A stretch of DNA of 60,907 bases. Origin: an uncultured Bacteroidota bacterium (lineage in GTDB: Bacteria; Bacteroidota; Bacteroidia; B-17B0; Aurantibacillaceae). The notes under the pieces were generated by a model. It had not been told where the DNA came from, did no database searches, and was given only the letters and a program-made list of their open reading frames with translations. The stretch spans positions 1 to 60,907 of the forward strand of contig CAITNS010000003.1 of assembly GCA_903893815.1 (NCBI GenBank), in the 5' to 3' direction. The translations under genes were made by a program, and so were the position numbers. Each line of letters starts with the position of its first letter. The stretch's first letter is position 1. This document shows positions 10,305 through 59,634 of the stretch, piece after piece.

Positions 10305-10378
10305 GGTCCGGTAGTTCAGCTGGTTAGAATGCCGCCCTGTCACGGCGGAGGTCGCGGGTTCGAGTCCCGTCCGGACCG
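10305..10378 (+). tRNA. tRNA-Asp (anticodon GTC)
   Basis: A 74-nt cloverleaf. The acceptor stem GGTCCGG pairs with CCGGACC, the anticodon loop is CTGTCAC (anticodon GTC) on a CCGCC/GGCGG stem, and the T-arm contains GGTTCGAGTCC. The 3' CCA is not encoded (CCGGACC-G-CAAGG). Its 3' end faces a tyrosine recombinase gene, the typical attL arrangement of an island integrated into a tRNA gene. Confidence 0.97.
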
Positions 10379-10401
10379 CAAGGTTAAGACCAAAACAATA
10401 T

Positions 10402-10438: not shown

Positions 10439-10604
10439 AATTTTATCAATGCTAAATAAACTGAAATAAATTGAATTGATAGGTGGCATTTTCGGTGGCA
10501 TTTACATTTCGTAATTTAGTGCCACCGAATCATGGGTTAAAATACTGACATACAGCAATTTAATGTTTTTGATTACCAGTCTAAAAACCATTAAAAAAAG
10601 CACT

Positions 10605-11864
10605 ATGAAGGTAGCATCGAACATGGCCATTTTATTATGGCTGAGAAACGCAAAAAACAACAATGATTTAGCAACCATTATGGTTAGAATTACCATCAAT
10701 GGTAAACGCATTGATTGGAGTTTAGGTAAACAGGTAAATCCAGATCATTGGATTTCCGGTGCCGGAATTCTTAAAACATCCGCTAAGGAAAGTAAAACGG
10801 TCAATCCATACCTCAACCATGTCCGTGGTGAAATCCATACCCATTTCAACATCCTATCTTCCCAATTCGAAAATTTAAGCCCTGAAATGGTTAAAAATGC
10901 ATTTTTGGGTATTCAAGAAAATACAAAAAAAGAAAAAACACTGCTTGAAGCATTCAATTACCATAATTCTAAATTTAAGGAGAAAGCACTAATCGGCAAA
11001 GTTTCCATTAAAAGTTGGGAAAGATTAGAAATTGCAAAAAATAAGGTTAATACCTTTATGACTGAGATTCTCAAATGCCAGGATAAAAATCTTTGCGACC
11101 TCAAAATGTCTTTTGTGACCGAATACGAGCATTTTTTATCTGTTAATCAAAAAATGCAATCAAATACGGTTATGAAATACATTAAAATCCTAAAGCAGAT
11201 TTTAAATTATGCCGTAGCGCTTGATTGGATTCAGTCTAACCCCTTTAATCAATTCAAATGCACATATCGCAATCCGGATAGAGTTGTTCTCACGCAAGAT
11301 GAAATTGATGTGTTATATTTCAAAGAATTGCCTAATGAACGTTTAGAACAGGTCAAAGACATTTTCCTGTTTGCATGTTATACTGGCTATGCTTTTAGTG
11401 ATATTGAGTTACTAAGCCTTGATTCTGTAGTTAAGGGTATTGATGGCGAAACATGGATACATGCTAATCGCGTAAAAACGGATGTGAGAGAAAATGTGAT
11501 GCTTCTCGACATTCCTTTAAAAATTATCGAAAAGTACAAAGAGCATCCATTTTGCAAAGCAAAAGGCGTCTTATTGCCGGTTGTTAGTAATCAAAAATAC
11601 AATGCTTACCTAAAGGAAATCGCCTCACTATGCAATATCAACAAACACCTTACTTCCCATATTGCAAGGCATACATTTGCCACTACAGTAACACTGGCTA
11701 ACGGCATTTCTCTCGAAAGTGTTAGCGCCATGCTTGGCCATGCAAGTATTAAAACCACACAAATTTATGCAAAAGTGGTTCAAAGCAAATTAAGCACTGA
11801 AATGAAAGCTTTGAAAGAAAAAATGAGCAACTTCAAATCCCACTCTGCCGCCGATGGCTCATAG
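10605..11864 (+). CDS. Tyrosine recombinase/integrase (IntDOT-like)
   Basis: About 419 residues from the ATG at 10605 (the frame is open to 10563, but MKVASNMAILLWLRNAK is the usual start). An N-terminal Arm-DNA-binding-like domain, a SAM-like core-binding domain (about 100-200) and a C-terminal catalytic domain are visible. Catalytic features: HIARHTFATT (H-x-x-R box), LGHASIKTTQIYAKV with the His and nucleophilic Tyr, and a VKTD lysine strand. The first catalytic Arg is not obvious (FACYTGYAFSDIELL where TGLR is expected); from the CTnDOT integrase family this loss is known, so it does not imply inactivity. Its place 3' of tRNA-Asp suggests that tRNA is the attachment site. Confidence 0.9.
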   Translation: MKVASNMAILLWLRNAKNNNDLATIMVRITINGKRIDWSLGKQVNPDHWISGAGILKTSAKESKTVNPYLNHVRGEIHTHFNILSSQFENLSPEMVKNAFLGIQENTKKEKTLLEAFNYHNSKFKEKALIGKVSIKSWERLEIAKNKVNTFMTEILKCQDKNLCDLKMSFVTEYEHFLSVNQKMQSNTVMKYIKILKQILNYAVALDWIQSNPFNQFKCTYRNPDRVVLTQDEIDVLYFKELPNERLEQVKDIFLFACYTGYAFSDIELLSLDSVVKGIDGETWIHANRVKTDVRENVMLLDIPLKIIEKYKEHPFCKAKGVLLPVVSNQKYNAYLKEIASLCNINKHLTSHIARHTFATTVTLANGISLESVSAMLGHASIKTTQIYAKVVQSKLSTEMKALKEKMSNFKSHSAADGS

Positions 11865-11895: not shown

Positions 11896-12689
11896 ATGAA
11901 AAACTTTGCTTCAAACCTCGAAAAACGCATGATTAAAACTTTTGCAGAACATGAAATGATGTATGCCAATCACCCATTTCAAAATTATCATCAAAACACC
12001 GAAGTATGCTCAATAGCCATTCAAGAACTAAAAAAAGAATACAATCGCTTTTCACGCAATCGTACTTTAAATGAAGAGGTTATCTTTTATAAAGAATGTT
12101 ATCCGATAATTGCTAAATGGCAATTATATTTTCACTACATTCATCAATTAGAGCAGTCCTTGTTCATTTCTTACTTAGAGTTAAAAATAAAAACCTATAA
12201 AAATTGCATGGTTAAACTAAACAGCGATTTTAAAAAAAAGAACTTTTATTTTCATGTTTATTGATAAATGATAACAAACTCGATCAAAGTATTTTTATTG
12301 AAGGCAGCTTAAATAACACGATAGCTGCCGAATTTCAGGCTTTTATTCTTATTTCAAAATACCTCAATCAAAAAATTAATGAATTCAAAACACAACCTGA
12401 TAGGCAAATGGTTAGTCAACCTAAAGTTCACTTCAATCACCAGTTAAACTGGTCATCAGCACTATCAAAATGTGTTGAAATTTGTTACGCCTTATACCTC
12501 CTCAAAGTAATAAATAATGGTAACGCCACATTAAAACAAATTACCGAAACATTTGGACAATCACTTAATGTCGATTTAAGCGACTATGCCCAATCCATGA
12601 AATACATCAAAAAAAGAAAACGCGACGGCTTGTTTCTAACAGAAATGTCAAACACCTTATTCTCGTTTATTTCTCATAGTAATCAATAA
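11896..12689 (+). CDS. RteC-like protein encoded in two frames joined by a -1 shift
   Basis: Frame one runs from 11896 (MKNFASNLEKR) to the TGA at 12262-12264. Frame two continues to 12689 and has no good start (TTG 12261). Together they resemble RteC of Bacteroides conjugative elements: the second part contains LKVINNGNATLKQITETFGQ and DLSDYAQSMKYIKKRKRDG, typical of the RteC C-terminus, and FIEGSLN resembles its middle motif. The frames overlap at T-TTT-AAA-AAA-AAG (12229-12240), which includes an A AAA AAG heptamer in the zero frame; a -1 slip there reads straight into frame two with GAA-CTT. The result is either a programmed frameshift product of about 265 aa or a frameshift mutation in an A8 tract. 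RteC regulates excision in CTnDOT. Confidence 0.65.
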
Positions 12690-14618: not shown

Positions 14619-14649
14619 AAAAAAATCAGTAGCACTACTGATTTTTTTA
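14619..14649 (+). terminator. Terminator-like hairpin that also resembles the GTAG/CTAC box
   Basis: AAAAAAATCAGTAG-CA-CTACTGATTTTTTT, a 14-bp stem with a T-run, 92 bp past the ATPase gene. Its core TAG-CA-CTA resembles the palindromes found upstream of other genes in the window, so it may double as a weak regulator site. The stretch 14528-14618 holds nothing else I recognise. Confidence 0.65.
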
Positions 14650-14651
14650 TC

Positions 14652-14690
14652 TAAGTACTACTACTTAATTTATCTAAGTAGTAGTACTTA
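14652..14690. promoter_or_regulatory. Inverted pair of TAAGTACTACTACTTA boxes upstream of the small-protein/two-component operon
   Basis: TAAGTACTACTACTTA (14652-14667) and its exact reverse complement TAAGTAGTAGTACTTA (14675-14690) are separated by 7 bp. Each contains the GTACTAC core of the dispersed regulatory boxes, but here the two are mutually inverted and not followed by the fixed promoter. A half-site (AAACTACTTAG) follows near 14704-14714. This looks like a variant operator controlling the operon that encodes the two-component system. Confidence 0.6.
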
Positions 14691-14855
14691 ATTTTATAAC
14701 TGAAACTACTTAGAAAATGCTTATTATCATATAGTAACGTGATTTTTTATATTTTTATCCTTAGTATATTTTACATAAAAGACAATAGAGTTTAAGTAGA
14801 TGATTTATCATTGCATCAAATAAACAATTTACTAACCTTATAAAAATTAAAAATT

Positions 14856-15164
14856 ATGGCTTTTACAGGCAATGAAGCGGAACAATTTCCGCTTGAAACA
14901 TCAGCAGAGTGGACTGCAAATTACAGAAAAAAAAATCCAAATGGTATTAAAGCACACTTTTTTGGCATGAACATCATTAAACAAATATTAGCACAACCAA
15001 ATTGTGTTGGCATTAGATGTTATTATGCCTTAGACGAAAAAGGAGTTCAACAAATGATTATGGTTGGGGCAGATAAAGACGAAAATGACCTTTATACTGG
15101 TATAATTGCTGAGGTTTCTGCGCCTTGCCCTCCTTTCTGCGGTAAAGGTAGTCCCCTTCTATGA
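14856..15164 (+). CDS. Conserved small Bacteroidota protein of unknown function
   Basis: 102 residues, soluble, no signal peptide. I recognise the pattern (SAEWTANYRKKNPNGIKAHFFG, NCVGIRCYYALDEKGVQQ, VGADKDENDL, and a Cys-rich tail SAPCPPFCGKGSPL) as one that recurs in small uncharacterised Bacteroidota proteins. No function is known to me. It lies behind the double-inverted GTACTAC operator and ahead of the multi-TM/kinase/regulator operon, so it may belong to the same signalling unit, perhaps as a sensed or target protein; this is inference. The three Cys in CPPFC and upstream could bind metal. Confidence 0.75.
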   Translation: MAFTGNEAEQFPLETSAEWTANYRKKNPNGIKAHFFGMNIIKQILAQPNCVGIRCYYALDEKGVQQMIMVGADKDENDLYTGIIAEVSAPCPPFCGKGSPLL

Positions 15165-15174
15165 TAAACAAATT

Positions 15175-15215
15175 AATATACGAAAATGCTATTATTTTAA
15201 GCATTTTCGTATATT
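15175..15215 (+). promoter_or_regulatory. Long hairpin just upstream of the membrane-sensor gene
   Basis: AATATACGAAAATGCT (15175-15190) and AGCATTTTCGTATATT (15200-15215) form a perfect 16-bp stem with a 9-nt loop, ending 9 bp before the ATG at 15225. There is only a poor T-tract. It could terminate the small-protein transcript, leaving reduced read-through into the two-component genes, or mask their ribosome site. Confidence 0.6.
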
Positions 15216-15224
15216 TACTCAGGT

Positions 15225-15881
15225 ATGCAAAATGGAATAAATTTCTTCTCTATACTAGCTTACTCATCATCTGCGTTTGCATTTTTTCCATTCGTTCAGG
15301 GTGTTTTAAACCGAAACAAATTACTTCTTGAATTAAAATTAATTTGGTTTCTAATTACACTTTCTATCATAACGGACTTTTTAGGAGGGCTGTTATCATA
15401 TAATTTAAACATAAGTAATTTATTCTTGCTTAATATTTATATAGTTATAGAATCAATCTTATTATTGGTAGTTTATTTTTTAATAATCAAGAATTATAAA
15501 TGGAAATTAATTATTTCTATTTTGATTGCTTTGTTTATTATATACGCATTGTTTTTTTCAAATTTTAAATCTATAAAATCATTAGATAATATAGTTCTTA
15601 CATCTGAATCCTTATCTATTATGGCTTTATCCATAATTTATTTTCAATGTTTATTAAAATTCCCTGTCCATAAAAACCTCCTATATATTCCATTTTTTTG
15701 GATTAACACTGCTCTGATTTTTTATTTTGTAGGAAATTTATTTTTACATTTATTTAGTACTTATCTTCAAGAACATGCACTATACGCCTTCTTCGAACTA
15801 TGGGGTATATGGCATTCTCTCTTAAATATTCTTTTTTATTCACTAATTAGCATTGGGTTTTGGCAAATCAAACGGACATAA
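15225..15881 (+). CDS. Integral membrane protein, probable sensor partner of the kinase
   Basis: 218 residues, almost entirely hydrophobic, with about seven predicted membrane segments (approx. 5-27, 37-58, 66-88, 94-112, 128-148, 155-178, 190-212) and short loops. I do not recognise a named family. Its 3' end overlaps the start of the histidine kinase gene by 22 bp, so the two are probably co-translated. The kinase has only one membrane helix and no periplasmic sensor domain, so this protein is a reasonable candidate for the sensing component (inference). Confidence 0.7.
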   Translation: MQNGINFFSILAYSSSAFAFFPFVQGVLNRNKLLLELKLIWFLITLSIITDFLGGLLSYNLNISNLFLLNIYIVIESILLLVVYFLIIKNYKWKLIISILIALFIIYALFFSNFKSIKSLDNIVLTSESLSIMALSIIYFQCLLKFPVHKNLLYIPFFWINTALIFYFVGNLFLHLFSTYLQEHALYAFFELWGIWHSLLNILFYSLISIGFWQIKRT

Positions 15882-16690
15882 CAAATCTTAAGCTCCTAAT
15901 AACACTTGGCATAGTCATCACTTTGTTTCTCGCAACGGTGGTTGTTCTTTTCGTCGTATTCTACCAACGTAAAATGCTACTCAAAGACGCTAGTATCAAA
16001 CTAATGGAGCAAGAAAAACAAATCGAGTTATTCAAGGCCTCAGTCGAAGCTGAAGAGAAACAAAAAGAAAAAATCGCTCGCAATCTCCACGATGAAATCA
16101 ACCCAATACTCAACACTTTAAAATTCAATATAACTAAACATCGTATCAAAGCCCAAAAAAACGAACTCGATCCTGCTAGCATGTTCGCTGATGAAGAAAC
16201 CTTAAACAAAGTAATCGAAGGTATTCGTTCTGTTTGTTACGATCTTATTCCTTCTTTCTTTTTAGAATACGGCCTAATTGTTTCTCTAGAATCTTATGTA
16301 AAAAACGTTCAAAATATGGATGATATTTCAGGTGAGTTTTATAGCGATGTCATACCTGAAGAACTCGAAACATTTAGCCGTCAGGAGCAGTTGAATATGT
16401 ATAGAGTTTGTCTCGAAATATTAAACAACTTATTTAAACATTCTGAATGTAAGTTCTTCAGTGTTTCTATGAATAGTCTTAATAAAAGTCTTGTATTTAA
16501 AGTAACACATAACGGTAAAGGCATTAGCAATGAAGAAATGAATTTATTTACCGAAAATTCAAAAGGCTTAGGACTTAAATCGTTAAAAGCGCGCATCATT
16601 TTACTTAAAGCAAATATCAATTATAATAAAGATATTAATTCCTCATCAATTACTTTAACAGTGCCACTAAATCCAAATAAATTAGTATAA
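15860..16690 (+). CDS. HisKA_3-family sensor histidine kinase
   Basis: 276 residues. One membrane helix (about 11-34), a coiled coil (about 42-72), then the phosphoacceptor motif KIARNLHDEINPIL with H77, and an ATPase domain with N-box (CLEILNNLFKHS, N190), G1-like HNGKG (217-221) and G2 GLGLKSLKAR (236-245). The G1 box usually reads DNGxG; here the Asp is His, a change I recall from some Bacteroidota relatives. Translation appears to start at the TTG at 15860 inside the preceding gene. The following response regulator ATG is directly adjacent to the stop (0 bp), so kinase and regulator are a cognate pair. Confidence 0.88.
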   Translation: MANQTDITNLKLLITLGIVITLFLATVVVLFVVFYQRKMLLKDASIKLMEQEKQIELFKASVEAEEKQKEKIARNLHDEINPILNTLKFNITKHRIKAQKNELDPASMFADEETLNKVIEGIRSVCYDLIPSFFLEYGLIVSLESYVKNVQNMDDISGEFYSDVIPEELETFSRQEQLNMYRVCLEILNNLFKHSECKFFSVSMNSLNKSLVFKVTHNGKGISNEEMNLFTENSKGLGLKSLKARIILLKANINYNKDINSSSITLTVPLNPNKLV

Positions 16691-17347
16691 ATGATCAAAA
16701 AAACAATAAACATAGCCATAGTTGATGATCATGTAATTATGCGTCAAGGACTTATATCACTTTTAGCTGAATATGAGGAGATAAATATTTTATTCGATGC
16801 CAACAATGGAAAAGAATTGATGGATAACCTCAAATCCTCAAAACCAGATATTGTATTATTAGATATTGCAATGCCTGTTATGAATGGTAAGGAAGCTCTG
16901 GAAAAAATGCAACTGAAATATCCAAATATTAAGGTCATAATCATGACCAATTATTTCCACGACGAACACATCATCGAATTCATAAAAGCAGGTGCTTGTT
17001 CTTTCCTTCCTAAAAATTGTAATATCGATAAGTTACTCGATGCACTAAATTATGTTTACGAGCATGGATATTTCTACGAGAATAGAATATCTGCAGCAAT
17101 GGCATCCTTATTAAAAAAAACACCTACAAATAACAAAGTTGTGGCTGATACAGCATTTACTAAACAAGAAATTAAAATTGTAAAACTAGTTTGTATAAAA
17201 AAAACAAATGCTGAAATTGCCGACGAACTTTGCGTCAGTGTTAGAACTATCGAAAGTCATCGATATAATATTTCTAAAAAAACAAACACCAATACACCAA
17301 TCGACCTCATTGAATATGCCGAAAAAAATGGCATTCTAAATCTGTAA
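16691..17347 (+). CDS. NarL/FixJ-family response regulator 1
   Basis: 218 residues. The receiver domain (about 6-125) has acidic pair D12-D13, phosphoacceptor D58 (VLLDIAMP), T86 and K108 (FLPKN). The C-terminal LuxR-type HTH (about 150-215) reads FTKQEIKIVKLVCIKK...AEIADELCVSVRTIESHRYNI. It directly follows the kinase gene. It is the likely DNA-binding output of the system and, with its paralogue at 17629, the best candidate to bind the GTAGTACTAC boxes (inference; NarL-family dimers bind short inverted repeats). One isolated box lies just past its stop codon. Confidence 0.9.
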   Translation: MIKKTINIAIVDDHVIMRQGLISLLAEYEEINILFDANNGKELMDNLKSSKPDIVLLDIAMPVMNGKEALEKMQLKYPNIKVIIMTNYFHDEHIIEFIKAGACSFLPKNCNIDKLLDALNYVYEHGYFYENRISAAMASLLKKTPTNNKVVADTAFTKQEIKIVKLVCIKKTNAEIADELCVSVRTIESHRYNISKKTNTNTPIDLIEYAEKNGILNL

Positions 17348-17359
17348 CTTAAAAAATTA

Positions 17360-17371
17360 AGTAGTACTACT
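17360..17371. promoter_or_regulatory. Isolated AGTAGTACTACT palindrome
   Basis: A perfect 12-bp palindrome 13 bp after the stop of response regulator 1, without the fixed downstream promoter. It may be an extra regulator site or part of a decayed module. The rest of 17372-17528 is AT-rich with Lys/Phe-like runs and shows no gene. Confidence 0.55.
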
Positions 17372-17530
17372 GATAGGTAGTGTATTCGTTTTGCCTTGAT
17401 TTTTCTTTGGTTCTTTCTTTGTATTCAAGCCAAAAAAAGAATAAAGTTCTATCTGTTTCTTAAAGTTCTTTTGGTCAAGCAAAAAGAAAAAAAAGTCCCT
17501 CTCTCTACTTAGAAAATTAATTTAAAATTC

Positions 17531-17601
17531 AGTACTACTACTTAAATAAAAAATTCAGTAGTACTACGGATTGTATATAGCGTTCACTAAAATTAGTTTT
17601 G
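17531..17601 (+). promoter_or_regulatory. Regulatory module 1: two boxes plus promoter, upstream of response regulator 2
   Basis: Box 1 AGTACTACTACT (17531-17542); box 2 GTAGTACTAC (17558-17567); then GGA; -33 TTG (17571-17573); 20 nt; -7 TAGTTTTG (17594-17601, perfect TAnnTTTG). It ends 27 bp before the start of response regulator 2, suggesting autoregulation or regulation by regulator 1. Confidence 0.8.
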
Positions 17602-17628
17602 TTATTTATTAAATAATCTCACTAAGCA

Positions 17629-18285
17629 ATGGCAAAACCTATCAACTTAGCAATCGTAGATGATCACTCCTTATTTCGTGATGGTTTAATAGCACTTTTA
17701 AAAGAATTTGACAACATAAATATTGTTTTTGATGTAAGTAATGGTAAAGAATTATTAGCAGAGTTAAAACTTAAAAAACCCGATGTTATTTTACTCGATA
17801 TCGAAATGCCTACGATGAATGGCAAAGAAGCTTTATATATAATTAATCTCAAATACTCAAAAATAAAAGTCATTATGATGAGTTCTCATTTTAATGATGA
17901 CTATATTTTTGAATTCATTAAAAATGGAGCTTGTGCATTTTTACCTAAAAACTGTGATATAGAAATTATTCTTAAAGCTATAAATTCAGTTTTTGAGCTC
18001 GGTTACTATTATGATGATAAAGTCTCAAATGCAATAGCATCTTTGCTACAAAATCCACCTATTTCAGAAAATTTAATTCCTGATATCTTTTTTACTTCTC
18101 GCGAAATAGAAATTCTCAAACTCATTAATAGTAAAAAATCAAATTATGAAATTGCAGATACCCTATATGTAAGCGTAAGAACCATCGAAGGCCATAGGTA
18201 TCGTATATCCAAAAAAACAAAAACAAATAGTCCTATTGAACTTATGGATTATATAAACAAAAGTAATCTATTCAAAATACTCTAA
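17629..18285 (+). CDS. NarL/FixJ-family response regulator 2 (paralogue)
   Basis: 218 residues, the same length and layout as regulator 1 and clearly related along its whole length. Receiver: D11-D12, D57 (ILLDIEMP), K107 (FLPKN). LuxR-type HTH: FTSREIEILKLINSKKSNYEIADTLYVSVRTIEGHRYRI. It is separated from the kinase operon by about 280 bp and has its own box-plus-promoter module, so it may be produced only when regulator 1 (or itself) is active. The duplication suggests a feed-forward or competing regulator. No second kinase is visible. Confidence 0.9.
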   Translation: MAKPINLAIVDDHSLFRDGLIALLKEFDNINIVFDVSNGKELLAELKLKKPDVILLDIEMPTMNGKEALYIINLKYSKIKVIMMSSHFNDDYIFEFIKNGACAFLPKNCDIEIILKAINSVFELGYYYDDKVSNAIASLLQNPPISENLIPDIFFTSREIEILKLINSKKSNYEIADTLYVSVRTIEGHRYRISKKTKTNSPIELMDYINKSNLFKIL

Positions 18286-18301: not shown

Positions 18302-18373
18302 AGAGTACTACTACTCTATTAAAAATGAGGTAGTACTACGTATTGCAAAAAGCACACCCGCAAATTAGCGTTG
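18302..18373 (+). promoter_or_regulatory. Regulatory module 2 with no gene directly behind it
   Basis: Box 1 AGAGTACTACTACTCT (18302-18317); box 2 GTAGTACTAC (18330-18339); GTA; TTG (18343-18345); 20 nt; TAGCGTTG (18366-18373; one mismatch). Only 120 bp follow before the next module, with no open frame, so the transcript would be a short RNA or run through module 3. Confidence 0.75.
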
Positions 18374-18493: not shown

Positions 18494-18563
18494 AGTAGTA
18501 CTACTCTACTAAAAATCGAGTATTACTACGTATTGCAAAACGCACAACAACATGTTAGTTTTG
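18494..18563 (+). promoter_or_regulatory. Regulatory module 3, tandem with module 2
   Basis: Box 1 AGTAGTACTACT (18494-18505); box 2 with one change, GTATTACTAC (18520-18529); TTG (18533-18535); 20 nt; TAGTTTTG (18556-18563). The nearest clear gene is the large T9SS protein at 19138, 575 bp away. The region 18564-19137 has only short frames (for example a 12-codon frame at 18769 with a possible GGAG site) and no recognisable gene. Confidence 0.75.
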
Positions 18564-19137: not shown

Positions 19138-22100
19138 ATGAAACAGACGTTAAAAGCACTATTGTATGCCATCTTAATATTAGCAAGTATAGGATTTACG
19201 AAAAACACAATGGCGCAAGCGCCTCCTGACGTGTACACTAACATCGCCTCTGGTAACCAAACCTTAGAAAATGATACTATTATAGGTACGTCTAAATGGT
19301 ATCGTTGGGTAGCAGATACTGGTGTCGCAAAAATCAGCATAAATCTCAAAAAAAATGGCACTAGCTATCAGTTGTCTGCTGCCAGTTTATACACTAACAA
19401 TTCAGGTACTCTATCATTAGTTTTTAATGATTCATTAGCAGAAGTTGGTGATAGTTTATTGACTTTATATGCTGGATATATTTCTGCTGGTACAGAATTA
19501 TATATAAAGATAATTAATGCAACAAGTACGTGCACAGCATGTACGTTGGCAAATCCAATTGTTCAACTAAAAGTTGCAAACTACGGATCAAACTGCTCTA
19601 GCATAACAACCTGTGGGCTTGTTAGAAATGGTGGCTTTGAAAACATGGTAACAAATTTACCTTATCAATGCGGCTGGAGTACTGTAAACAATTTAATTAA
19701 TTGTTGGGCAGATTACGAAAGAACACCAGATGTTTTTGTTGGCGGCTGTACTACTGCTCCTGCAAATAGTTTTAACTTAAGTGGCACTAATGTTCTTTCT
19801 CCTTCTGCAACAATAAATACTGCTAATCCAAACCCTCATAACGTTGCGCTTGGTTTTTATTGTGCTTCAAATCCTTGGAATGAAGCAGCTCAATCTCCTC
19901 TTGTTACGCCTCTAGTTTTTGGGCATACATATCAAATTAGTTTATGGGCATATAATGCAAAGGGTACATTAACAGACCAAGTTTCAAATGTAAGACCAAT
20001 AAACGCATTAAATATTTCTCCGTATTTTGCTATTGCTAGTACTCCAGCTATTACTAATTCAGCCAATTTTCCATCAGGTCAAAATGTTGTGGCATCAATT
20101 CAATTAACTGGCGCTGTAAACACATGGTCGTTATATACAACAACATATACTCATAACTTGCCAACTGCCCACAATAATATAGTTATTGGCCCTAATTATC
20201 CTACAAATAGCTCTAATGGTTTTTTAAACACAAATATATTATACTTACTTGCCGACCAAATTTCAATTACAGATATTACTACGTTAACTTTCAATAACCC
20301 GACTGTTTGCGCTGGCACAGCAACTCTTAATGTTACAGGCGCAAATACATATACATGGCAACCTGGCAATTTTAATGGCACTTCTGTTACTGGAACAGCA
20401 ACTACTGTTTATACTGTTACTGGTTCTTTCGCATCTAATCCAACCTGTACAGTTGGTCCTGCAACAGGCACATTAACTGTTATTAATAATACTATAAATC
20501 TTACAGCAAGTTCAACTACTATTTGCGCAGGAAGTTCAACGACATTAACAGCTAGTGCAGCTGGCAATAATATGTTTGTTTTAGCGCCTTGTACCTCTGG
20601 CTGTGGTTCAACAAATCCAGCAAATTATATTGTTACTCCTTCTGTAACAACTACCTACACGGTAACAAGCAATAGTAGTTTGGGCGGCAGTTGTAATAAA
20701 ACTCAAACAATTACTATTTATGTAGTACCAACAGGTAATCCAACATTAAATATTTCAGCTAGTCCAACTGTAATATGTGCAGGTAGCAGCTCAACTCTTT
20801 CAGCATCAGGCGCAAGCACCTATACTTGGAATCCTGGTGCACTAAGTGGTCCAAGCGTTGCAGTTAGTCCAACAGTAACAACAACTTATACAGTAACAGG
20901 CGCAACCCCTTGTGGTTCTTCAACCAAAACAATTACCGTTGTCGTAAATCCAAAACCAACGGTCGCTGTTGCTTCACAAACTATTTGTATTGGTGGCACA
21001 GCTACATTAACTGCCAGCGGTGCCAACACATATAGTTGGAGCACCAGTGCAACAGGCCCCTCAATTACTGTTACACCATCTGTTACAACAAACTATACTG
21101 TTACTGGCACAAGCGCAGCGGGTTGTACAAACACTGCGTTAGCAACCGTTGCTGTTACTACCAATACAATCCCTGCATTTAGCATTACTACTAATCCTCC
21201 ATCACCAGTTATTAATAACGGTACTGGCACTAATACCATTGTTTTATCTAGTAATATTACTAATACTACCGGTTTAACTTTTTCTTGGAGTGGCGGTGCA
21301 CCAACGCCAACTACCAATTTCAATTTAAGTCAACCCTCAATAATTAGCCTTACTGTTAGTAATCAATATTGTGGTGCAAGCACACAAAGCATTTGTGTTA
21401 ACTATGTAGCAGCATCTTGTTCAAACACTACAATTCCTGTTTTAAACAATGCTATTGTTACTTCTTCTACTCAAATACCTGCTGGTGTTTACAGAGTAAC
21501 AGGAACATTAACATTTAGTTTGTCTGGTGCAATCAATGTTTCTAATAAAACGTTTATGATGGCTACAAACTCTAAAATTATTGTAAGCCCAAGAACAACA
21601 CTATTAAACCATACAGGATTAAGAATTTATAGTTGTGACGGGATGTGGAACGGAATTGAACTACAAGCTGATGCATCAAATGCCGCTGCGGTAAACATAT
21701 TAGATGATGCTATCATTGAAGATGCTTACATTGGTATTAGTGCAGGAACTACTACTTTATCTACCATGCACAGTATTAATATTAATGGTGCAAATACTCA
21801 ATTCAATAAAAACTACATTGATATTAAAATCGTAAATACAAACTCAACATCAGCAGTTTATACATTTACTTTTGCAGCAAAAGGTATGTATAGTAAATCT
21901 AGTGGCAATTCGCCTGGCGGTAATTTAAAATGTAGTAGCTATTACACTCCAATTGTAAAATCACGGAGTTTAATAGGCGTGCAAGCCAAAGATGCAGGTA
22001 TTATTACTTTTACAGTTCCCAACGGTGGTGGAGCTGGTATTAATCCAGAAATACAAAACAAGGATTATGGTTTATTTTTTAATAATACAGATGCTAATGT

Positions 22101-24105
22101 AAATAACGTAAACTTTAATAATGCAGTGGGCGTTGCTTACAGCTATGCCTTTAGTTTTGCCTCTGCGCCTGCTGGTGTGGGTATTTATACTAAAAACTCA
22201 AAATATCTAAATGTAAAACCCGCAACTACGCCAACAGTTGGCGCTACTACTACGTTTAGTAATATGGGCTACAGTATTATTTCTCATGGCACTTCTACGG
22301 TTGATGTGCAAAATACAAACCATACTTCTTCGGTGCAATCATTTACCAACGACCCAGGTTGGGGTTCTGGCACTAATGCCTATATTTGGGGTGGCAACGT
22401 TATGCTTGCTGGTTACGGTTTAAATGGCATTTTTGCTACCAATCCAAGTGGAGTATTACGTATTAACAATAATACCTTTAGCCAAAATTATTATCCAATA
22501 ACTGTTAACTATACAACCACCCCAAGCGCAAATGTAATATTGAGTGTAGCCCAAAATACAATAAGCGCCACAGGCACAGGGGTTGTTACCGAAGGTACTA
22601 CTATAAATTCTACCTTACCTTTCTTTGGTGCTAATACCGATAATATGCGTGTAGCGGCAAATACCTACACTAATGTACAATTGGGTGTAAAAGCAACTGC
22701 AATAAAAAGTGGCTTACGCATTAGTAATAATATCATTACTTTAAAATCAACAGGTAGTCGCGCAATATCTTTAAGCGGTGCAAATAATGCCATAGCCGAT
22801 GCCAATCAAATAATTGGTAATAACACAACTTCTATTGCGAACATTGGTATATTTTGTGAAAACAGCCCTGCTTGTAAAATAAAATGTAATACTATTAGCA
22901 ACACTGGACATGGTATAGAATACCGCGGTGGTAATGCTAGCCCAGGCGATGGATTTTTTGGCAACACCTTAAATTATCCAATGAGACGTGGTTTAGTGTT
23001 AAGTAATGGCGGTATTATTGGAACTCAAGGTAACAGTAGCGGCGCTAGTGCCAATGTTTGGAACGGTTTTGTGAACATTACAAACGTTGACCAAACTTTT
23101 GTTGGTGGTAACCCTCCAGGAGGTGCGGCAAGTAATGCAAATAATAGTCCGTTATATGTTCATAATAATAGTACAGAATTACCAACTGATAATGGTTTTT
23201 TACCGCCATCAGGAATTGGAGATAGATATGTGCTAAACATTAACACGTTTACAACAACTGCTGGTAATACTTCTACTTGCCCAAATATATTAACGCAAGG
23301 TTTAAGAACCAATGGAACTACAAGTGTTGATAATACCGATAGAGATCATGATTTTGTTAACTACATCAATAATTTAGTGCCTGCGACTAATGATGATTTA
23401 ACGCCACAAGACAAATTTTTATTGAAACAATATATGTTTGAAGCTTTGAGCCAAAACCCAAGTGCTAATACTACGATTGCTAATTTTTATGACCAACAGC
23501 AAACGAGTTCAATTAATACCTATTATGATATTGATAGTTTACTAGCAGCAGGCAATATCGCTTTAGCAACTACTAAAAACAATCAGGCATCACAAACTAA
23601 CGATATTACTCAAACTCAAAATGCCTATAATGCCTTATACATCAATGGCATTAACAATCAAACCGATTTAGATAATTTAATAGCTATTGCTGATTTGTGC
23701 CCATCATTATATGGCAATGCAGTTTTTGAGGCTCGTGCCTTGTTGCAAAGCATTACTTATGTTGGTAAAGTATATAACGATAGCTGTGATAATTCAATAA
23801 CAAAAAAAAGCGCGTGGATTGATGGTGAAGATAAAAGTATAAGTGTAGCAGAAGGAGTGCAGGCTAAATTATACCCTAACCCAAATAACGGAACATTTAT
23901 GTTAGCTTATGATTTAAAAAAGAACAATGATGCTACCGTAACTATTACGGATATCACAGGAAAATTAGTTTACAAAGGAATTTTAGATAACTTGGATAAT
24001 AGGGTACAAATAAATACCAGTAATTTAAACAACGGTATTTACTTTATACAAATTACACATGATAAAACTTTATTGTGGACTGATAAATTAATGATTAGTA
24101 AATAA
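19138..24105 (+). CDS. Very large T9SS-secreted surface protein with Ig-like repeats and parallel beta-helix region
   Basis: 1655 residues. A signal peptide (about 1-27, ending TMA-Q) is followed by a discoidin/jelly-roll-like N-terminal region (about 160-375, with CGLVRNGGFENMV), a set of Ig-like repeats (about 380-690; repeating pattern ICAGSS.TL.ASGA..YTWNPG...VTPTVTTTYTVTG), a long stretch of beta-helix-like repeats rich in Asn/Thr/Gly (about 740-1290), a helical region (about 1380-1530) and a C-terminal sorting domain (KLYPNPNNGTFML to LMISK). Such proteins are exported by T9SS and attached to the cell surface. The role is likely adhesive, but no ligand can be inferred. Confidence 0.8.
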   Translation: MKQTLKALLYAILILASIGFTKNTMAQAPPDVYTNIASGNQTLENDTIIGTSKWYRWVADTGVAKISINLKKNGTSYQLSAASLYTNNSGTLSLVFNDSLAEVGDSLLTLYAGYISAGTELYIKIINATSTCTACTLANPIVQLKVANYGSNCSSITTCGLVRNGGFENMVTNLPYQCGWSTVNNLINCWADYERTPDVFVGGCTTAPANSFNLSGTNVLSPSATINTANPNPHNVALGFYCASNPWNEAAQSPLVTPLVFGHTYQISLWAYNAKGTLTDQVSNVRPINALNISPYFAIASTPAITNSANFPSGQNVVASIQLTGAVNTWSLYTTTYTHNLPTAHNNIVIGPNYPTNSSNGFLNTNILYLLADQISITDITTLTFNNPTVCAGTATLNVTGANTYTWQPGNFNGTSVTGTATTVYTVTGSFASNPTCTVGPATGTLTVINNTINLTASSTTICAGSSTTLTASAAGNNMFVLAPCTSGCGSTNPANYIVTPSVTTTYTVTSNSSLGGSCNKTQTITIYVVPTGNPTLNISASPTVICAGSSSTLSASGASTYTWNPGALSGPSVAVSPTVTTTYTVTGATPCGSSTKTITVVVNPKPTVAVASQTICIGGTATLTASGANTYSWSTSATGPSITVTPSVTTNYTVTGTSAAGCTNTALATVAVTTNTIPAFSITTNPPSPVINNGTGTNTIVLSSNITNTTGLTFSWSGGAPTPTTNFNLSQPSIISLTVSNQYCGASTQSICVNYVAASCSNTTIPVLNNAIVTSSTQIPAGVYRVTGTLTFSLSGAINVSNKTFMMATNSKIIVSPRTTLLNHTGLRIYSCDGMWNGIELQADASNAAAVNILDDAIIEDAYIGISAGTTTLSTMHSININGANTQFNKNYIDIKIVNTNSTSAVYTFTFAAKGMYSKSSGNSPGGNLKCSSYYTPIVKSRSLIGVQAKDAGIITFTVPNGGGAGINPEIQNKDYGLFFNNTDANVNNVNFNNAVGVAYSYAFSFASAPAGVGIYTKNSKYLNVKPATTPTVGATTTFSNMGYSIISHGTSTVDVQNTNHTSSVQSFTNDPGWGSGTNAYIWGGNVMLAGYGLNGIFATNPSGVLRINNNTFSQNYYPITVNYTTTPSANVILSVAQNTISATGTGVVTEGTTINSTLPFFGANTDNMRVAANTYTNVQLGVKATAIKSGLRISNNIITLKSTGSRAISLSGANNAIADANQIIGNNTTSIANIGIFCENSPACKIKCNTISNTGHGIEYRGGNASPGDGFFGNTLNYPMRRGLVLSNGGIIGTQGNSSGASANVWNGFVNITNVDQTFVGGNPPGGAASNANNSPLYVHNNSTELPTDNGFLPPSGIGDRYVLNINTFTTTAGNTSTCPNILTQGLRTNGTTSVDNTDRDHDFVNYINNLVPATNDDLTPQDKFLLKQYMFEALSQNPSANTTIANFYDQQQTSSINTYYDIDSLLAAGNIALATTKNNQASQTNDITQTQNAYNALYINGINNQTDLDNLIAIADLCPSLYGNAVFEARALLQSITYVGKVYNDSCDNSITKKSAWIDGEDKSISVAEGVQAKLYPNPNNGTFMLAYDLKKNNDATVTITDITGKLVYKGILDNLDNRVQINTSNLNNGIYFIQITHDKTLLWTDKLMISK

Positions 24106-33827: not shown

Positions 33828-33898
33828 AGTACTACCACTTAGATAAATAATTCAGTAGTACTACGTATTGCAAAACGCACACCTACAAATTAACTTTG
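33828..33898 (+). promoter_or_regulatory. Regulatory module 4, upstream of the TIR operon
   Basis: Box 1 AGTACTACCACT (33828-33839); box 2 GTAGTACTAC (33855-33864); GTA; TTG (33868-33870); 20 nt; TAACTTTG (33891-33898, perfect). The leader to the TIR start (33994) is about 95 bp and resembles that of the FRG gene. The rest of 33483-33827 has no gene. Confidence 0.8.
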
Positions 33899-33993: not shown

Positions 33994-34584
33994 ATGATAT
34001 ATACTACTAAATATTTTAAACAAATAGCCGAAAACAATCTTCGGACATTTAGTAATACCATAGAAAAAGCAATTCTTAATGAAAATAAAACTCAAAACGA
34101 ATGGAGTAATTTCACCGGTGACGAGTTTGATATTTTTCTTTCACACAGTTATTTGGACAAAAAAATTATTTATGGAATTTATCTTGAACTTACTAAACTT
34201 GGATACTCTGTTTACATAGACTGGCTAAAAGACCCTGAATTAAACCGAACAAAAGTGACGAGTGAAACAGCCGACAAAATTAGAGAGAGACTTTTTCAAA
34301 GTAGATGTCTCTTTTATGCAACAACAACAAATTCTAAACGGTCAAGCTGGATGCCATGGGAATTAGGTTTTATGGATGGGAATAATCAAAAAGTAGCAAT
34401 ACTACCTATGACCGAAAATCACGAAACAGAGTTTTTAAGAATGGAATATTTAGAACTATATCCCTACATAGAAAAACAAACGATTTCAGGCTCGACAGAA
34501 CAGAAATTGTGGGTATGTGAAAGCGAAAAACGTTACACCACTTTTGACCGATGGGTAACAGGTAAACCTTTAACAAATCATTAA
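33994..34584 (+). CDS. TIR-domain protein
   Basis: 196 residues, no signal peptide. A TIR domain covers about 40-160: FDIFLSHSYLDKKIIYGIYLEL (first strand and helix), GYSVYIDW, then SRCLFYATTTNSKRSSWMPWELGFMDG, in which the Glu after the Trp is where TIR NADases carry their catalytic acid. Bacterial TIR proteins of this kind cleave NAD+ or make cyclic ADP-ribose signals during anti-phage defence. It is the first gene of a three-gene operon (1 bp to the next start) behind regulatory module 4, with a 3-TM protein and a ThsB-like TIR. Confidence 0.85.
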   Translation: MIYTTKYFKQIAENNLRTFSNTIEKAILNENKTQNEWSNFTGDEFDIFLSHSYLDKKIIYGIYLELTKLGYSVYIDWLKDPELNRTKVTSETADKIRERLFQSRCLFYATTTNSKRSSWMPWELGFMDGNNQKVAILPMTENHETEFLRMEYLELYPYIEKQTISGSTEQKLWVCESEKRYTTFDRWVTGKPLTNH

Positions 34585-34585
34585 T

Positions 34586-34978
34586 ATGGAAGACAAACTA
34601 AAGCATCTTGAATTTGCCCAAGGAGTAATTAATCGAATGGGACAGAACTCCTTCTTAATTAAAGGCTGGACAGTTACACTTATCTCAGCCTTGTTTGCCC
34701 TAGCTGCAAAAGATTCCAATCAAAAGTTTATTACAGTTGCCTATTTCCCGACTATAATTTTTTGGTTGCTTGACAGCTATTTTCTCTACCAAGAAAGACT
34801 TTTCAGAAAAGTTTATACTCACATAAGTAAACAGACTGTAATTGATTTTTCATTAGCAACCAAAGACTTTGACGAAGGAATAAGTGATTGGGCATCTGTT
34901 GCATTTTCAAAGACAATTTTACTTTTCTATGGTTGCATAATAGCAACTTTATTGACTGTAATGTTTATTATAAATTAA
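34586..34978 (+). CDS. Small 3-TM membrane protein, possible effector
   Basis: 130 residues. Three likely membrane helices (about 23-41, 48-68, 111-130) and a charged cytosolic loop in between (YQERLFRKVYTHISKQTV). The N-terminus EFAQGVINRMGQNSFLIKGW is a pattern I recall in small proteins found beside TIR-like genes, with some resemblance to SLATT-type 2-TM effectors; I cannot assign a family with certainty. It sits between two TIR-type genes (1 bp and 5 bp spacings), so a membrane-disrupting effector role is plausible (inference). Confidence 0.65.
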   Translation: MEDKLKHLEFAQGVINRMGQNSFLIKGWTVTLISALFALAAKDSNQKFITVAYFPTIIFWLLDSYFLYQERLFRKVYTHISKQTVIDFSLATKDFDEGISDWASVAFSKTILLFYGCIIATLLTVMFIIN

Positions 34979-34983
34979 TCAAA

Positions 34984-35475
34984 ATGGCAAAACAAGTATT
35001 TTATAGCTTTCATTATGACAATGATAATTGGAGAGCATCGCAAGTTCGTAACATTGGTGTAATAGAAGGCAACAGACCTGCTCCAGACAATGACTGGGAG
35101 ACTATTAAAAAAGGTGGAGAAAAGGCAATTCAAAAATGGATTGACGACCAAATGCATTATCGTTCTTGTACTATACTTTTGGTTGGTTCAGCTACAGCGG
35201 ACAGAAAATGGATAGATTATGAAATCGAAAAAACGTGGAAAGAAGGTATGGGGCTTGTTGGAATTTGTATTCATAATCTCAAGGACAGAAATGGAAATAA
35301 ATCTACTCAAGGGAAAAACCCGTTTTTAGGATTTAATGTAAACGGTACACCATTAAGTCAGATTGTAAAATTATATAATCCGCCTTTTTCGGACAGTAAA
35401 TTAGTTTATAATCATATCAGTGAAAATATATTAAAATGGGCAGAGGAATCAGTAGCTATAAGAAAGAAATATTGA
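34984..35475 (+). CDS. ThsB-like TIR protein (DUF1863/MTH538 type)
   Basis: 163 residues from ATG 34984 (MAKQVFYSFHYDNDNWRASQVRN). The pattern VFYSFHYDNDNWRASQVRNIG, then KWIDDQMHYRSCTILLVG, ADRKWIDYEIEKTWKEG and GVCIHNLKDR-like strand is that of the MTH538/DUF1863 TIR-like family, to which ThsB of Thoeris belongs. In Thoeris, ThsB senses phage and makes a cyclic ADP-ribose signal that activates ThsA. No ThsA (SIR2-SLOG or TM-macro) is present here; the 3-TM protein may replace it. It is the last gene of the module 4 operon. Confidence 0.8.
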   Translation: MAKQVFYSFHYDNDNWRASQVRNIGVIEGNRPAPDNDWETIKKGGEKAIQKWIDDQMHYRSCTILLVGSATADRKWIDYEIEKTWKEGMGLVGICIHNLKDRNGNKSTQGKNPFLGFNVNGTPLSQIVKLYNPPFSDSKLVYNHISENILKWAEESVAIRKKY

Positions 35476-35489
35476 CACGAATATTACCA

Positions 35490-35674
35490 GCCCCATCAAG
35501 ATGAGTTATGAGCTGATGTTCATTAAACACTAATCTCAATCTCCACAGAATATAAATCTAAGTCCAAAATTTATTGCTCCTCTTCCTCTGAAAGGAGTAA
35601 GGAGGTGAGGCTCACTTTTCTCTTAAAAATCAAGTAGTACTACTCTACTAAAAATCAGGTAGTACTACGTATTG
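35490..35674 (+). repeat. 185-bp repeat including module 5; second copy at 42525-42710
   Basis: Starts GCCCCATCAAGATGAGTTAT and runs through CACTAATCTCAAT, GAGTAAGGAG and the two boxes to the promoter TTG. The copies differ by scattered substitutions only. It shows that modules spread together with flanking DNA. Confidence 0.85.
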
Positions 35675-35772: not shown

Positions 35773-38700
35773 ATGAAACAAAAACTATTATTATTTGCAT
35801 TTACTTTAATAAGTGCAATGCTTTGTTCTCAAGCTCAAAATATGGCTTTCGAGGATTTTAAAACAAATGATGGTACTCAAAATTTCTTTTACAAAAATAT
35901 TGTAAAAACAGATGCTTCTGGTAATATTTACACATTAGGTGCTACAACCACAAGTAATAGTACCACTGATATTTTATTAACTAAAAAAAATTCTTCAGGT
36001 GTTTCTCTTTGGTCAAAACAAATTAATGGTACTGCTAATTATCACGATTTTGGTTCAGGTTTAGCAATAACTTCATCAGGTGATGTATATATTACTGGAG
36101 CTATCACAAACAATACAACCACATTAGCTCCTGAGTTAATTATCAGAAAATATAACTCTTCAGGATCACAACAATTTTCAACAACCTATTCAGGGGCTGG
36201 ATATGGTTGTGTTGGTAAAGATATAGTAGTTGACGGTAGCGGTAACTCTTATATTACTGGGGCGGGATACAATAGTGGATTTAATGCGGACATTTTAACT
36301 ATTGCATTTGGAAGCACAGGAACACAGATTTGGACAGATTTATTTGATAATAATTCCTTGAATGATGGCGGCGTAAAAATTGGGTTTAGGTCAAATAAAG
36401 TAACCGTTACAGGTGCTGTAACCCAAAGCACAAATAACTACAAAATCGCAACATTAACTTTTACCGCATCAACTGGTGTTAGATCCGAAACCATTACTTT
36501 GGGTTCAACAATGACATCAAGTGTTGAAATTGTAACAGGAATGACAACCGATGCAAGTGGTAATACTTATATATGTGGTGCTACAGAAGTAAGCGGTCAA
36601 GGATTCAATATGTATGTTGCAAAATTAACTAGTTCATTAACTATTGCCTGGCAACAAACCTACAATGGTGTTTCAAATTTAGATGACCAAGCTAAAGGCA
36701 TTCAAGTGGATGGTTCTGGTAATGTCTATATAACTGGTTATTCAACAAGTTCTACACTTGGTAAAGAAATTCGCACCATAAAATACAACAGTAGCGGTAC
36801 ATTACAATGGAACAACGTAATTAATAGCACAGGTAATAATCCCGACCAAGCTTTTGATATGGAAATGGATGCTTCTTCAAATATTTATGTTTGTGGTTAT
36901 AAAACAAACACCGCTAACAATTCCGATTATTATACTATCAAATATAATTCAAGTGGTACAACAATTTGGGACAAGTTAACAGATGGATTTTCAGCAAATG
37001 ATAGAGCAACAAACATAGCATTAGATTCATTAAATAATGTTATCATTACTGGTGAAAGTGAAACCAACCCTGGTATATATACCTATTTAACTACCAAATA
37101 TGTTCAACTAGTTGTTACAAATCCCGTTGACCTAAATAGTGAACCAAGTAATCAAAATATTGGTTTTCATCCAAACAGAGGTCAAATAAGAAATGAATAT
37201 GGAGTAAGTACTACTAGTCCACTTTATTATACACATAACCAAAATCCAGAAATATATATTGAAAAATGTGCATACGACTATGTTTTTATAAGAGCAGATT
37301 CAATAGTAGCTACAACAGACTCAATGGAAAGAATTGTTGTTACATTCTCATTAAGTAACTCAAGTAAAAAACCATACGGTTATAATCCAAAAGGATACCC
37401 TCTTCATTATTTGTTAGGTGATGTTGGAGCCCCTATAAATAATATTCGTGGTAATGATAGAGTTGTTACACAAGATTTATATCCACATATCGATTTACAT
37501 TATTTCAGCAATGCTAAAGGTTTTAAATATTATTTTGTAGTAAAAGAAGGCGGTGACCCAAGAGATATTAAAATGAAAGTTACTGGAGCATCTACAACAA
37601 GTATTTCATCTAATAATTTATTTATTGATGGTGTGTTAGGTGACGTTACATTAAAGAGACCACTAGCATATATGGTTAATGGTGCTGGAGCAACAACAAC
37701 ACTTTCCGCTGCAAGCTGGTCTCAAATTAGCAGTAATTACTATGAAATTACTACACCAACTTATACTACTAGTCAAACATTAATAATTGTTATTGAAACA
37801 ATCCCTCCAACATTAGTATCTAGTGTAGTTAGTAATTTAGATTATTCAACATTTTATGGTGGTAGTGCTAGCGATTATTTTTTTGATATTAAGGTCGCTT
37901 CAAATGGTGATAGGGCTGTAGTTGGTAGGTCATCTGGTGGCACATTCCCTACGTTTAATGCTTATCAAGCAAGTGCTTTTCCACTTGGTTCAATTGATGC
38001 TGTAGTATTAAAATATACAGCAGATGATACACTTAGATTTTGTACATACTATGGGGCAAATGGTTCTGATTGGGCTAATTCAGTTGCTATTAATTCAACT
38101 GGTAATATTTTCTTTGCTGGTTTTACTCAATCAACGGATTTATTAATTACTAATAATGGTGGTGAAACTAATCAAGCATTTAACGGTAATAACGGAAGTA
38201 TTAGTACTAATAAAACAGATGGATTTTTAATCAAACTAAAGATTGATGGTTCGGATAGAACTTATGGTAGGTATGTTGGTGGTTCAAGGTCTGAATATAT
38301 AAATTCAATTTATATTGATGGAAGTGATAATTTATATTTTACTGGCACAACGTCATCTGATGATTTACCAGTTGTTAATGCTTATTCTGGTTCACACGGA
38401 ACAACATCATCTGATGATTTTGATATGCTAATTGGAAAAATGAATTCATCACAAGTTGTTAATTTTTTAACTTATTTTGGAGGTAACGCTATAACTGGTT
38501 ATCAAACACAAGAATTTGGTAACGATATAACAGTTGATAATTCTGGGAATATTTTTGTTGTAGGAGAAAGTGATGAATCAAGTTTTCCAGTTATGAATCC
38601 AAGTTCAGGAAACTCAAACGTATTATATGATGCTTCTAACAATGGTTATGGAGATGGTGTAATTGTTAGGCTGACATCAACTGGTACACCTAACTATGCT

Positions 38701-41038: not shown

Positions 41039-41272
41039 TAATTTTTAAATTTCAGCACACTTCACAAATACACGCTATGCATCTCTGCCAACAATAAACT
41101 TTTTCAAACTACTTTATTCAATTTTATTTTTTTACAAACCAATTTTAATATGTTGTTCTGCTTTAGGCTATAATTTTCTCACATCAAAATCTTCCAAAAC
41201 CAAGTAGTACTACTCTATCAAAAATCGAGTAGTACTACGTATTGTAAAAATCATATCAACATATTAGTTTTA
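40838..41272 (+). repeat. Block A: sorting-domain code + degenerate spacer + regulatory module
   Basis: Shares a continuous similarity with block B (50438-50853) and block C (57128-57577): the 3' 200 bp of the T9SS gene, the spacer with CACTTCACAAATACACGCT and AATAAACTTTTTCAAAC, GGCTATAATTTTCTCACAT, and the module. A fourth partial copy (48620-48826) has only the sorting-domain part. Confidence 0.85.
41203..41272 (+). promoter_or_regulatory. Regulatory module 6, upstream of the FRG gene
   Basis: Box 1 AGTAGTACTACT (41203-41214); box 2 GTAGTACTAC (41229-41238); GTA; TTG (41242-41244); 20 nt; TAGTTTTA (41265-41272; last base differs from TAnnTTTG). About 100 bp of leader precede the ATG at 41373. 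Confidence 0.78.
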
Positions 41273-59624: not shown

Positions 59625-59634
59625 ATCGAAAACA

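Follow-up and report, generated by a model that had tools for sequence, protein, structure and literature searches.

An island-borne two-component system with an exchangeable membrane sensor is a candidate regulator of defence and secreted-protein genes in a Bacteroidota bacterium

Which protein reads a short palindromic box, GTAGTACTAC, that recurs in front of defence and secreted-protein genes of an uncultured Bacteroidota bacterium (Aurantibacillaceae)? The boxes lie on contig CAITNS010000003.1 of assembly GCA_903893815.1 (positions 1-60,907, forward strand). This stretch, called the window here, is the entire contig C3 of 60,907 bp from a source genome of 3.69 Mb in 86 contigs, and all genes, boxes, modules and segments given with window coordinates lie on its + strand. 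An original prediction, made from the letters only, had named a resident two-component system as the reader of the box-containing modules. This is supported by computation, namely by co-occurrence across relatives and by GTANNNNTAC palindromes before homologous operons. We regard it as probable that part of the island cargo is switched by a two-component system which is encoded on the island, regulates itself and has a receptor that can be exchanged.

The operon of this system encodes a 102-amino-acid (aa) protein, a 218-aa membrane protein, a histidine kinase and the response regulator RR1; the gene for a second regulator, RR2, follows after a gap of 281 bp. The kinase (15860..16690) has one N-terminal membrane helix, read from the sequence, and an HATPase_c domain (PF02518, E 1.2e-8, 35.8 bits against a cut-off of 26.4), and it is MctS/UhpB/LiaS-like with scores under the curated cut-offs. 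Zero Pfam matches were obtained for its phospho-acceptor domain (HisKA_3 type); a stretch LHDEI(N/K)P, which may be the H-box, is present in 9 of 9 aligned kinases. RR1 (16691..17347; Response_reg 2.2e-25, GerE 6e-10) and RR2 (17629..18285; Response_reg 1.2e-23, GerE 1.4e-10) are NarL/FixJ response regulators. Both exceed the curated cut-offs for PF00072 and PF00196 (receiver and GerE helix-turn-helix, HTH) and they are 57% identical, which confirms the predicted kinase with two paralogous regulators. When the operon proteins and RR2 were scanned with Pfam, GerE was found and LytTR was absent, and there were zero WYL matches up to E 0.1.

NarL-type regulators bind, as dimers, to short inverted-repeat sites close to the promoter. 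The exact box GTAGTACTAC occurs 15 times in the window, compared to 0.04 expected from shuffles, and 23 times when up to one mismatch is allowed (1.23 expected). Genome-wide it was found 17 times, 15 of them in the window contig and the remaining two as lone boxes on C15 and C79. The excess over shuffles and the genome-wide clustering rule out a chance origin.

Nine box pairs at 25 or 26 bp form the modules M1-M9. M1 (17532..17567; boxes at 17532 and 17558, 26 bp apart) ends 61 nt before the start codon of RR2, and a lone box (17361..17370) starts 14 nt past the final base of RR1, both as had been predicted. Between the lone box and M1, two open reading frames (ORFs) of 97 and 124 aa lie on the opposite strand in G015, a genome of the same genus as that of the window, and in G037, a genome of a different genus; they are absent from the window (17361-17386; L027 11174-12109; L031 3689-4794). 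Upstream of the operon, the box search found an array, M0 (14629..14687), and similar arrays stand before the operons of relatives. The double inverted variant that had been announced here is present (14655, 14678), but it is really a triple with box 14629 (GTAGCACTAC), the spacing being 26 and then 23 bp. Box 14629 lies within an inverted repeat (14619-14648) whose arms measure 14 nt and whose ends carry runs of A and T; this repeat may double as a terminator for the upstream ATPase gene.

Promoters of Bacteroidota have a -33/-7 spacing. In the window, a -7 element TAnnTTTG (up to one mismatch) begins exactly 26 nt past the second box in eight of the nine modules, and a TTG stands three nt past the second box in all nine. 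According to PMC9723704, the primary sigma factor of flavobacteria has TAnnTTTG as its -7 box. A match to it at one fixed intergenic position has a chance of 1.4%. Further modules with this box in G015, G037, G004 and G014 showed the -7 element at the same 26-nt offset in 11 of 14, many of them homologous to window modules and hence not independent draws. Such a geometry resembles that of activator sites beside a core promoter.

The modules precede genes of two kinds. M2 (18305..18339) and M3 (18495..18529) are followed by a doubtful 100-aa ORF (18802) and then by the gene for a 1655-aa protein sorted by the type IX secretion system (T9SS; 19138..24105, Por_Secre_tail). M4 (33829..33864, spacing 26 bp) lies upstream of three ORFs (33994..35475) assigned by PADLOC to a ThsB-like TIR protein (1.3e-53), PDC-M50A (1.6e-49) and ThsB/PDC-M50B (5.9e-71), where PDC names are those that PADLOC gives to candidate systems. 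M5 (35634..35668) precedes a 1282-aa T9SS-sorted protein (35773..39621; DUF7948 and SBBP in the domain search), M6 (41204..41238) an FRG-domain protein (41373..42401; FRG 2.8e-13), a candidate defence gene PDC-S15 (PADLOC 7.7e-109), and M7 (42670..42704) a RiboL-PSP-HEPN protein (42834..43547; Pfam 1.8e-10, zero PADLOC matches). Behind M8 (50813..50847) a 999-aa T9SS-sorted protein is encoded (50971..53970; Por_Secre_tail), and behind M9 (57509..57543) a 276-aa protein (57665..58495) with zero families matched in the domain and PADLOC searches. The 276-aa gene is followed by the KwaA-KwaB (Kiwa) pair (59022..60663; PADLOC 3.6e-47, 9.8e-57). In G015, the genes behind one module are a 78-aa ORF and then those for a Pycsar-like cyclase and the membrane effector that belongs to it. 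In keeping with the predicted regulon of secreted and defence genes, modules precede the TIR/ThsB-like, FRG, HEPN and T9SS-sorted genes of the window, but not the Kiwa pair and an RmrA-like/PIN pair, as considered below.

The 50-bp cores of M2, M3 and M5-M9 are 78-96% identical, and for many pairs of modules the flanks are unrelated. A block consisting of the 3' end of a T9SS-sorted gene, intergenic DNA and a module is repeated at 40820-41238, 50429-50847 and 57125-57543; its similarity stops at or just past the module, as though cassettes had been joined there. The modules might be chiefly recombination sites or homology handles for cargo cassettes, with a secondary role as promoters. The identity between M6 and M8 and between M8 and M9 is 84-98% and 86-94% over the upstream 200 bp and drops to 30-32% from 50 bp past the module start; for M6 and M9 it is 82-96% upstream and thereafter 60% and 32%. 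Lone boxes and tandem modules, and the two-ORF segment by which the window differs from G015 and G037 just past the lone box behind RR1, would also fit recombination. In 19 of the 23 modules, however, the -7 element keeps its 26-nt phase regardless of the surroundings, and distant genomes have boxes upstream of the operon with zero cassettes in the stretches examined. We therefore consider recombination unlikely as the chief role of the modules, and return to their reading as regulator sites.

The co-occurrence of box pairs and regulators was tested in a family panel of 87 genomes, where a pair was defined by an N15 or N16 spacer and up to two mismatches. Box pairs were found in nine genomes. 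Every genome whose RR2 homologue reaches 56% identity carries them (seven of seven), compared to two of the 80 others (one-sided Fisher 6e-9, with an identity threshold fixed after the list had been seen; the next-best homologue has 52%), as expected if the resident system reads the modules. For three of the seven (G012, G014 and G005), this homologue is the regulator encoded in the operon itself. The first of the two other genomes, G120, has its pair 165 bp upstream of its own small-protein gene; chance was rejected for this pair, since it adjoins G120's own copy of the operon. The second, G018, is the only one of the nine in which the two-component system was not detected at the thresholds used. 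It has four GTAGAACTAC-type boxes upstream of a 767-aa protein. That protein (G018:C55, L123, 182-2655) has partial matches to Ppl, mad3 and GajA.

The regions upstream of the homologous operons were then compared, 28 of 31 being used (G034, G111 and G101 were left out). The palindrome GTANNNNTAC was observed 59 times versus 3.4 expected by base composition, mostly at -230 to -130; three of the regions are near-duplicates of the window's own, and 6 of the 28 were without the palindrome. After removal of these near-duplicates (G037, G015c5 and G015c54), 15 of the 25 regions showed a pair at 22-27 bp, and 200 dinucleotide shuffles gave 0. In 34 chosen loci, several of which had been fetched for containing boxes and which exclude the lone-box loci of the own genome (L041, L042), 60 such pairs were counted versus 0 for two scrambled control patterns. 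The set outside the family started from 12 loci; 10 were left without L134 (the window) and L136 (G053), and 8 without G029 and G056, which belong to the family. Such pairs were present in three of these eight.

In other genera the homologous operons have GTANNNNTAC boxes with different cores at about the same place. The core upstream of the operon is GTAGTACTAC in the window, GTAATTTTAC in five genomes of genus g2, GTAGTTCTAC in G120 and GTATTTATAC in G058 and G023. The recognition-helix segment is common within the GTAGTACTAC group and common within the GTAATTTTAC group and differs between the two, a match that could arise from phylogeny alone. In genus g2 a second pair, GTAAATTTAC at 24 bp, was seen a few kb from the operon (L126 14639-14672, L127 3005-3038, L129 3256-3289); in L126 and L127 it faces four ORFs that resemble signalling proteins by eye.

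The boxes might also be read by a host regulator outside the island, with the local two-component system merely travelling along. In its own genome, the RR2 query found 36 loose candidates, two of which pass E 1e-30, and the family genomes hold many NarL-type regulators; the two lone boxes elsewhere in the genome and the G018 array without a detected operon would suit such a regulator. Against this, the box pairs track the operon across genera and divergent operons carry their own box core directly upstream. The regulon of a host regulator would be expected genome-wide, yet 15 of the 17 boxes are on one contig. A host regulator is in our view very unlikely.

A number of observations weigh against the reading of the boxes by the resident system. 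At the modules, the -7 match at the usual offset is missing in M8, in G037 c368b and in two G004 modules, and four modules with other cores (G031, G106, G053 and G119) had the -7 element once, at 25 nt, and not in the other three. Compared in the same register, M4 is only 34-40% identical to the other modules. At M0, no -7 element was found at the module spacing, and therefore the operon is perhaps under another geometry, or repressed. Among the relatives, 10 of the 25 non-duplicate upstream regions and five of the eight loci outside the family are without a pair. In G018, zero matches to the small protein (E 1e-6) or to a response regulator (E 1e-30) were obtained; its array is on a contig of 3.2 kb and the genome is 91% complete. 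The genomes that share the core GTATTTATAC (G023, G058) or GTATTTCTAC (G031, G108) differ in the recognition helix. Finally, the box search showed zero modules directly upstream of the RmrA-like/PIN pair and of the Kiwa pair, so the regulon does not cover every defence gene.

The distribution of RR2 bears on which of the two regulators acts at the modules. RR2 is present in the window, G015, G037 and G004; a module precedes it in all four, and only these four genomes have modules away from the operon. For G012, G014 and G005, a second close regulator was looked for among the homologues and none was found. In G012 and G005 the box pair is solely upstream of the operon, and G014 has degenerate boxes there and a pair directly behind RR1, ahead of an 86-aa ORF. 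This pattern fits a cascade from RR1 to RR2 to the cargo. RR1 alone could instead read all boxes, because the recognition helices are nearly identical. Activation of RR2 and the other modules by RR1, as proposed in the original prediction, is consistent with the four modules before RR2 and with the confinement of distant modules to RR2 genomes, but it is a weaker part of that proposal. Autoregulation, the other weaker part, is suggested by a single feature, the M0 array upstream of the operon, and M0 lacks a -7 element at the usual module offset.

Beyond the earlier account are the insertion at a tRNA gene, the membrane sensor and the exchange of this sensor. The left boundary of the island is a tRNA-Asp gene (10305..10379), identified by ARAGORN and Rfam and the sole RNA family found in a gathering-score Rfam scan of the window. 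It is followed by a tyrosine integrase (10563..11864; Phage_integrase 1.8e-15, Phage_int_SAM_5, Arm-DNA-bind_5), an RteC-like protein (12261..12689; PF09357, 2.1e-23) and a gene for a small HTH protein. In 100-bp bins, the identity to G015:C5 is 53-86% across the final kilobase upstream of tRNA-Asp and 97-100% from there to 14900, with a single exception bin at 83%. An integrase adjoining the tRNA gene together with a sharp identity step against the chromosome is what characterises a tRNA-targeting integrative element. In G037, the ATPase gene and the region preceding the operon are 99% identical to the window. From this match across genera and the step at tRNA-Asp, we conclude that the window carries an integrative island that is transferred between genera. 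The contig stops at 60907, before the far end of the island is reached.

The first two genes of the operon, which the original prediction names only collectively within the gene set 14856-17629, encode a small protein and a putative receptor. The small protein (14856..15164), with the C-terminus CPPFCGKGSPLL, has 11 invariant residues in the alignment, including C50, and H34, C91 and C95 are nearly invariant; the conserved Cys and His residues could bind metal. Zero families were matched in Pfam and NCBIfam. The structural model (pLDDT 86) predicts a folded domain of 102 aa, for which the fold searches, covering residues 21-100 only, yielded nothing convincing (best Foldseek E 0.57, best VIA Z 2.7 over 67 residues). 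In the PDB sequence search, the best E was 0.07 for the small protein, and the membrane protein had zero matches up to E 1. The family of the small protein was found in 60 of 395 sampled Bacteroidia genomes and in 41 of 197 genera, and the architecture is therefore perhaps wider than this lineage. In 30 fetched loci of this family (the window counted), the membrane gene was present in 30 and the kinase in 28, one miss being due to a contig end.

The 218-aa membrane protein (15225..15881) is a putative receptor whose AlphaFold2 (AF2) model (pLDDT 91) contains helices that were read as seven transmembrane (TM) segments. Among solved structures, 7-TM receptors and microbial rhodopsins come closest (best Foldseek E 0.14; best VIA Z 14.0, with an rmsd of 4.2 across 210 residues). 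Helical bundles give Z values of this size without kinship, so the resemblance of the model is evidence of shape only. Conserved to at least 90% in a 31-row alignment are S15, P22, E76, F158, W159, N161, L165, Y167, F168 and K214. The receptor and kinase genes overlap in the window (kinase start at 15860, receptor end at 15881), which would couple the translation and the exchange of both.

An exchange of the sensor segment was observed between near-identical loci. It extends over 15113..15965 (limits accurate to about 45 bp) and comprises the membrane-protein gene, flanked by the last codons of the small gene and by the part of the kinase gene that encodes the membrane helix. In 45-bp bins, the identity of the window to G037 is 95-100% ahead of the small gene, 86-100% across most of that gene, 37-68% over about 15113-15965, and 93-100% thereafter, through kinase and RR1. 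The corresponding protein identities are 34% for the membrane protein, 99% for kinase residues 37 to the end and 100% for RR1. G015 differs from the window likewise, and the exchange there takes in most of the small gene. G004 and G037 are 83% identical in the membrane protein and 82% in RR1, and in genus g2 the identities of membrane protein and regulator are 94/95 for G106-G053, 69/95 for G106-G119 and 54/94 for G104-G060. By these identities, the kinship of the receptors contradicts that of the regulators.

Identities and distances between operons were compared without G023 and G120 (operon cut by contig end). In 21 operons, the distances of the membrane protein and of the kinase helix correlate beyond the regulator (partial r 0.60, permutation p 0.0005), and because of this correlation receptor and kinase helix appear to be swapped as one unit. 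In G014:C32 (L034, 15354-18750), two receptor genes that are 53% identical flank a kinase fragment of 68 aa, like an unfinished receptor replacement. G015 has, besides C54 (L027), a second start of small protein and receptor, with a different receptor, at a contig end (C5, L119, 19269-19758), which is either a second copy or reflects two sensor alleles within one population.

A variable block of sensor and signal genes between conserved flanks, beside a kinase and a regulator, is reminiscent of agr of the Firmicutes, which comprises the membrane protease AgrB with conserved Cys and His, the short peptide AgrD and a LytTR regulator. A polymorphic cell-to-cell signalling of this kind, with the small CPPxC protein or its tail as signal and the membrane protein as receptor, would be compatible with the proposed two-component switch and would add the signal to it. 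Between window and G037, the variable segment does begin in the tail codons of the small gene and end past the kinase membrane helix; receptor alleles are shuffled among near-identical loci, and in G014 a kinase fragment is flanked by two receptor genes. Beyond the regulator, a weak covariation with the receptor is also seen for the body of the small protein (partial r 0.26, p 0.0125, 21 operons). The tail itself showed no clear correlation with the receptor, neither given the regulator (partial r 0.17, p 0.10) nor given the rest of the small protein (partial r 0.04, p 0.40); a tail pheromone was thus looked for by covariation with the receptor and not found. In contrast to agr, the membrane protein has zero Cys or His among its nearly invariant residues and is therefore not an AgrB-like protease, the small protein is a predicted folded domain with no short AgrD-like peptide gene beside it, and the regulators are of the NarL and not the LytTR type. 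An agr-like signal is doubtful on this evidence.

Taken together, these results suggest a switch of the following kind. The operon would produce the small CPPxC protein, the predicted seven-helix membrane protein, the kinase and RR1. The sensor would consist of the membrane protein and the single membrane helix of the kinase, since both seem to be exchanged together. The kinase would phosphorylate RR1 and probably RR2, as both have a receiver domain. NarL-type dimers of RR1 or RR2 might then occupy a pair of GTANNNNTAC palindromes at 25-26 bp spacing. The end of the promoter-proximal box lies 3 bp ahead of the TTG and 26 bp ahead of TAnnTTTG, where an activator would be expected. Because like boxes precede the operon, RR2, anti-phage genes and T9SS-sorted genes, one signal would switch on regulator, amplifier (RR2) and cargo jointly. 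Recombination between islands would exchange the sensor segment and leave RR1, the boxes and the kinase core unchanged, so that the same output could be connected to different inputs.

Two-component regulation is of a known kind. The HATPase_c kinase, the receiver-GerE regulators and the short inverted-repeat sites near the promoter resemble NarL/UhpA/LiaR-type systems. Unlike in these, the putative sensing role falls to a membrane protein of its own, whose partner gene encodes a small CPPxC protein, the second regulator has a module, and 15 of 17 genomic boxes are on one mobile island. Local DNA-binding regulators of neighbouring anti-phage operons are described for BrxR (PMC9122601), RptR (PMC13373217) and CapK-CapS (PMC12255303), with palindromic or repeated sites for the first two (PMC9122601, PMC13373217). 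As given there, all three are repressors, namely a WYL protein, a small dimeric repressor and an STAS-wHTH repressor with a kinase (PMC9122601, PMC13373217, PMC12255303). As far as these descriptions go, the system studied here differs by a membrane-sensing two-component system with activator-like geometry and by nine box pairs before regulator, defence and T9SS-sorted protein genes; a WYL domain as in BrxR is absent from the operon proteins and RR2 (up to E 0.1). Two features are unusual, namely that the regulon of defence and secreted-protein genes is borne on an island and that the membrane sensor can be exchanged. Among the matches listed in the open-access literature, zero titles or abstract starts concerned the operon, the box or two-component control of a Bacteroidota defence island.

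The control of anti-phage gene expression is called little studied in two of these sources (PMC9122601, PMC12255303). If the proposed switch is true, defence within a mobile element would be inducible and coordinated, with one box code on the promoters of both regulators, of defence genes and of secreted-protein genes. Islands that share an output but have different receptors would then be expected to answer different inputs. More tentatively, and as a possibility only, the locus may represent a polymorphic signalling class of Bacteroidota, in which a 7-TM receptor that can be exchanged and a small CPPxC protein act through a kinase on NarL regulators whose box code is specific to the lineage. 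This class may have been recruited by mobile islands so that their carriers recognise a particular signal, be it of kin, a neighbour or an attacker, and respond by raising anti-phage systems jointly with surface proteins.

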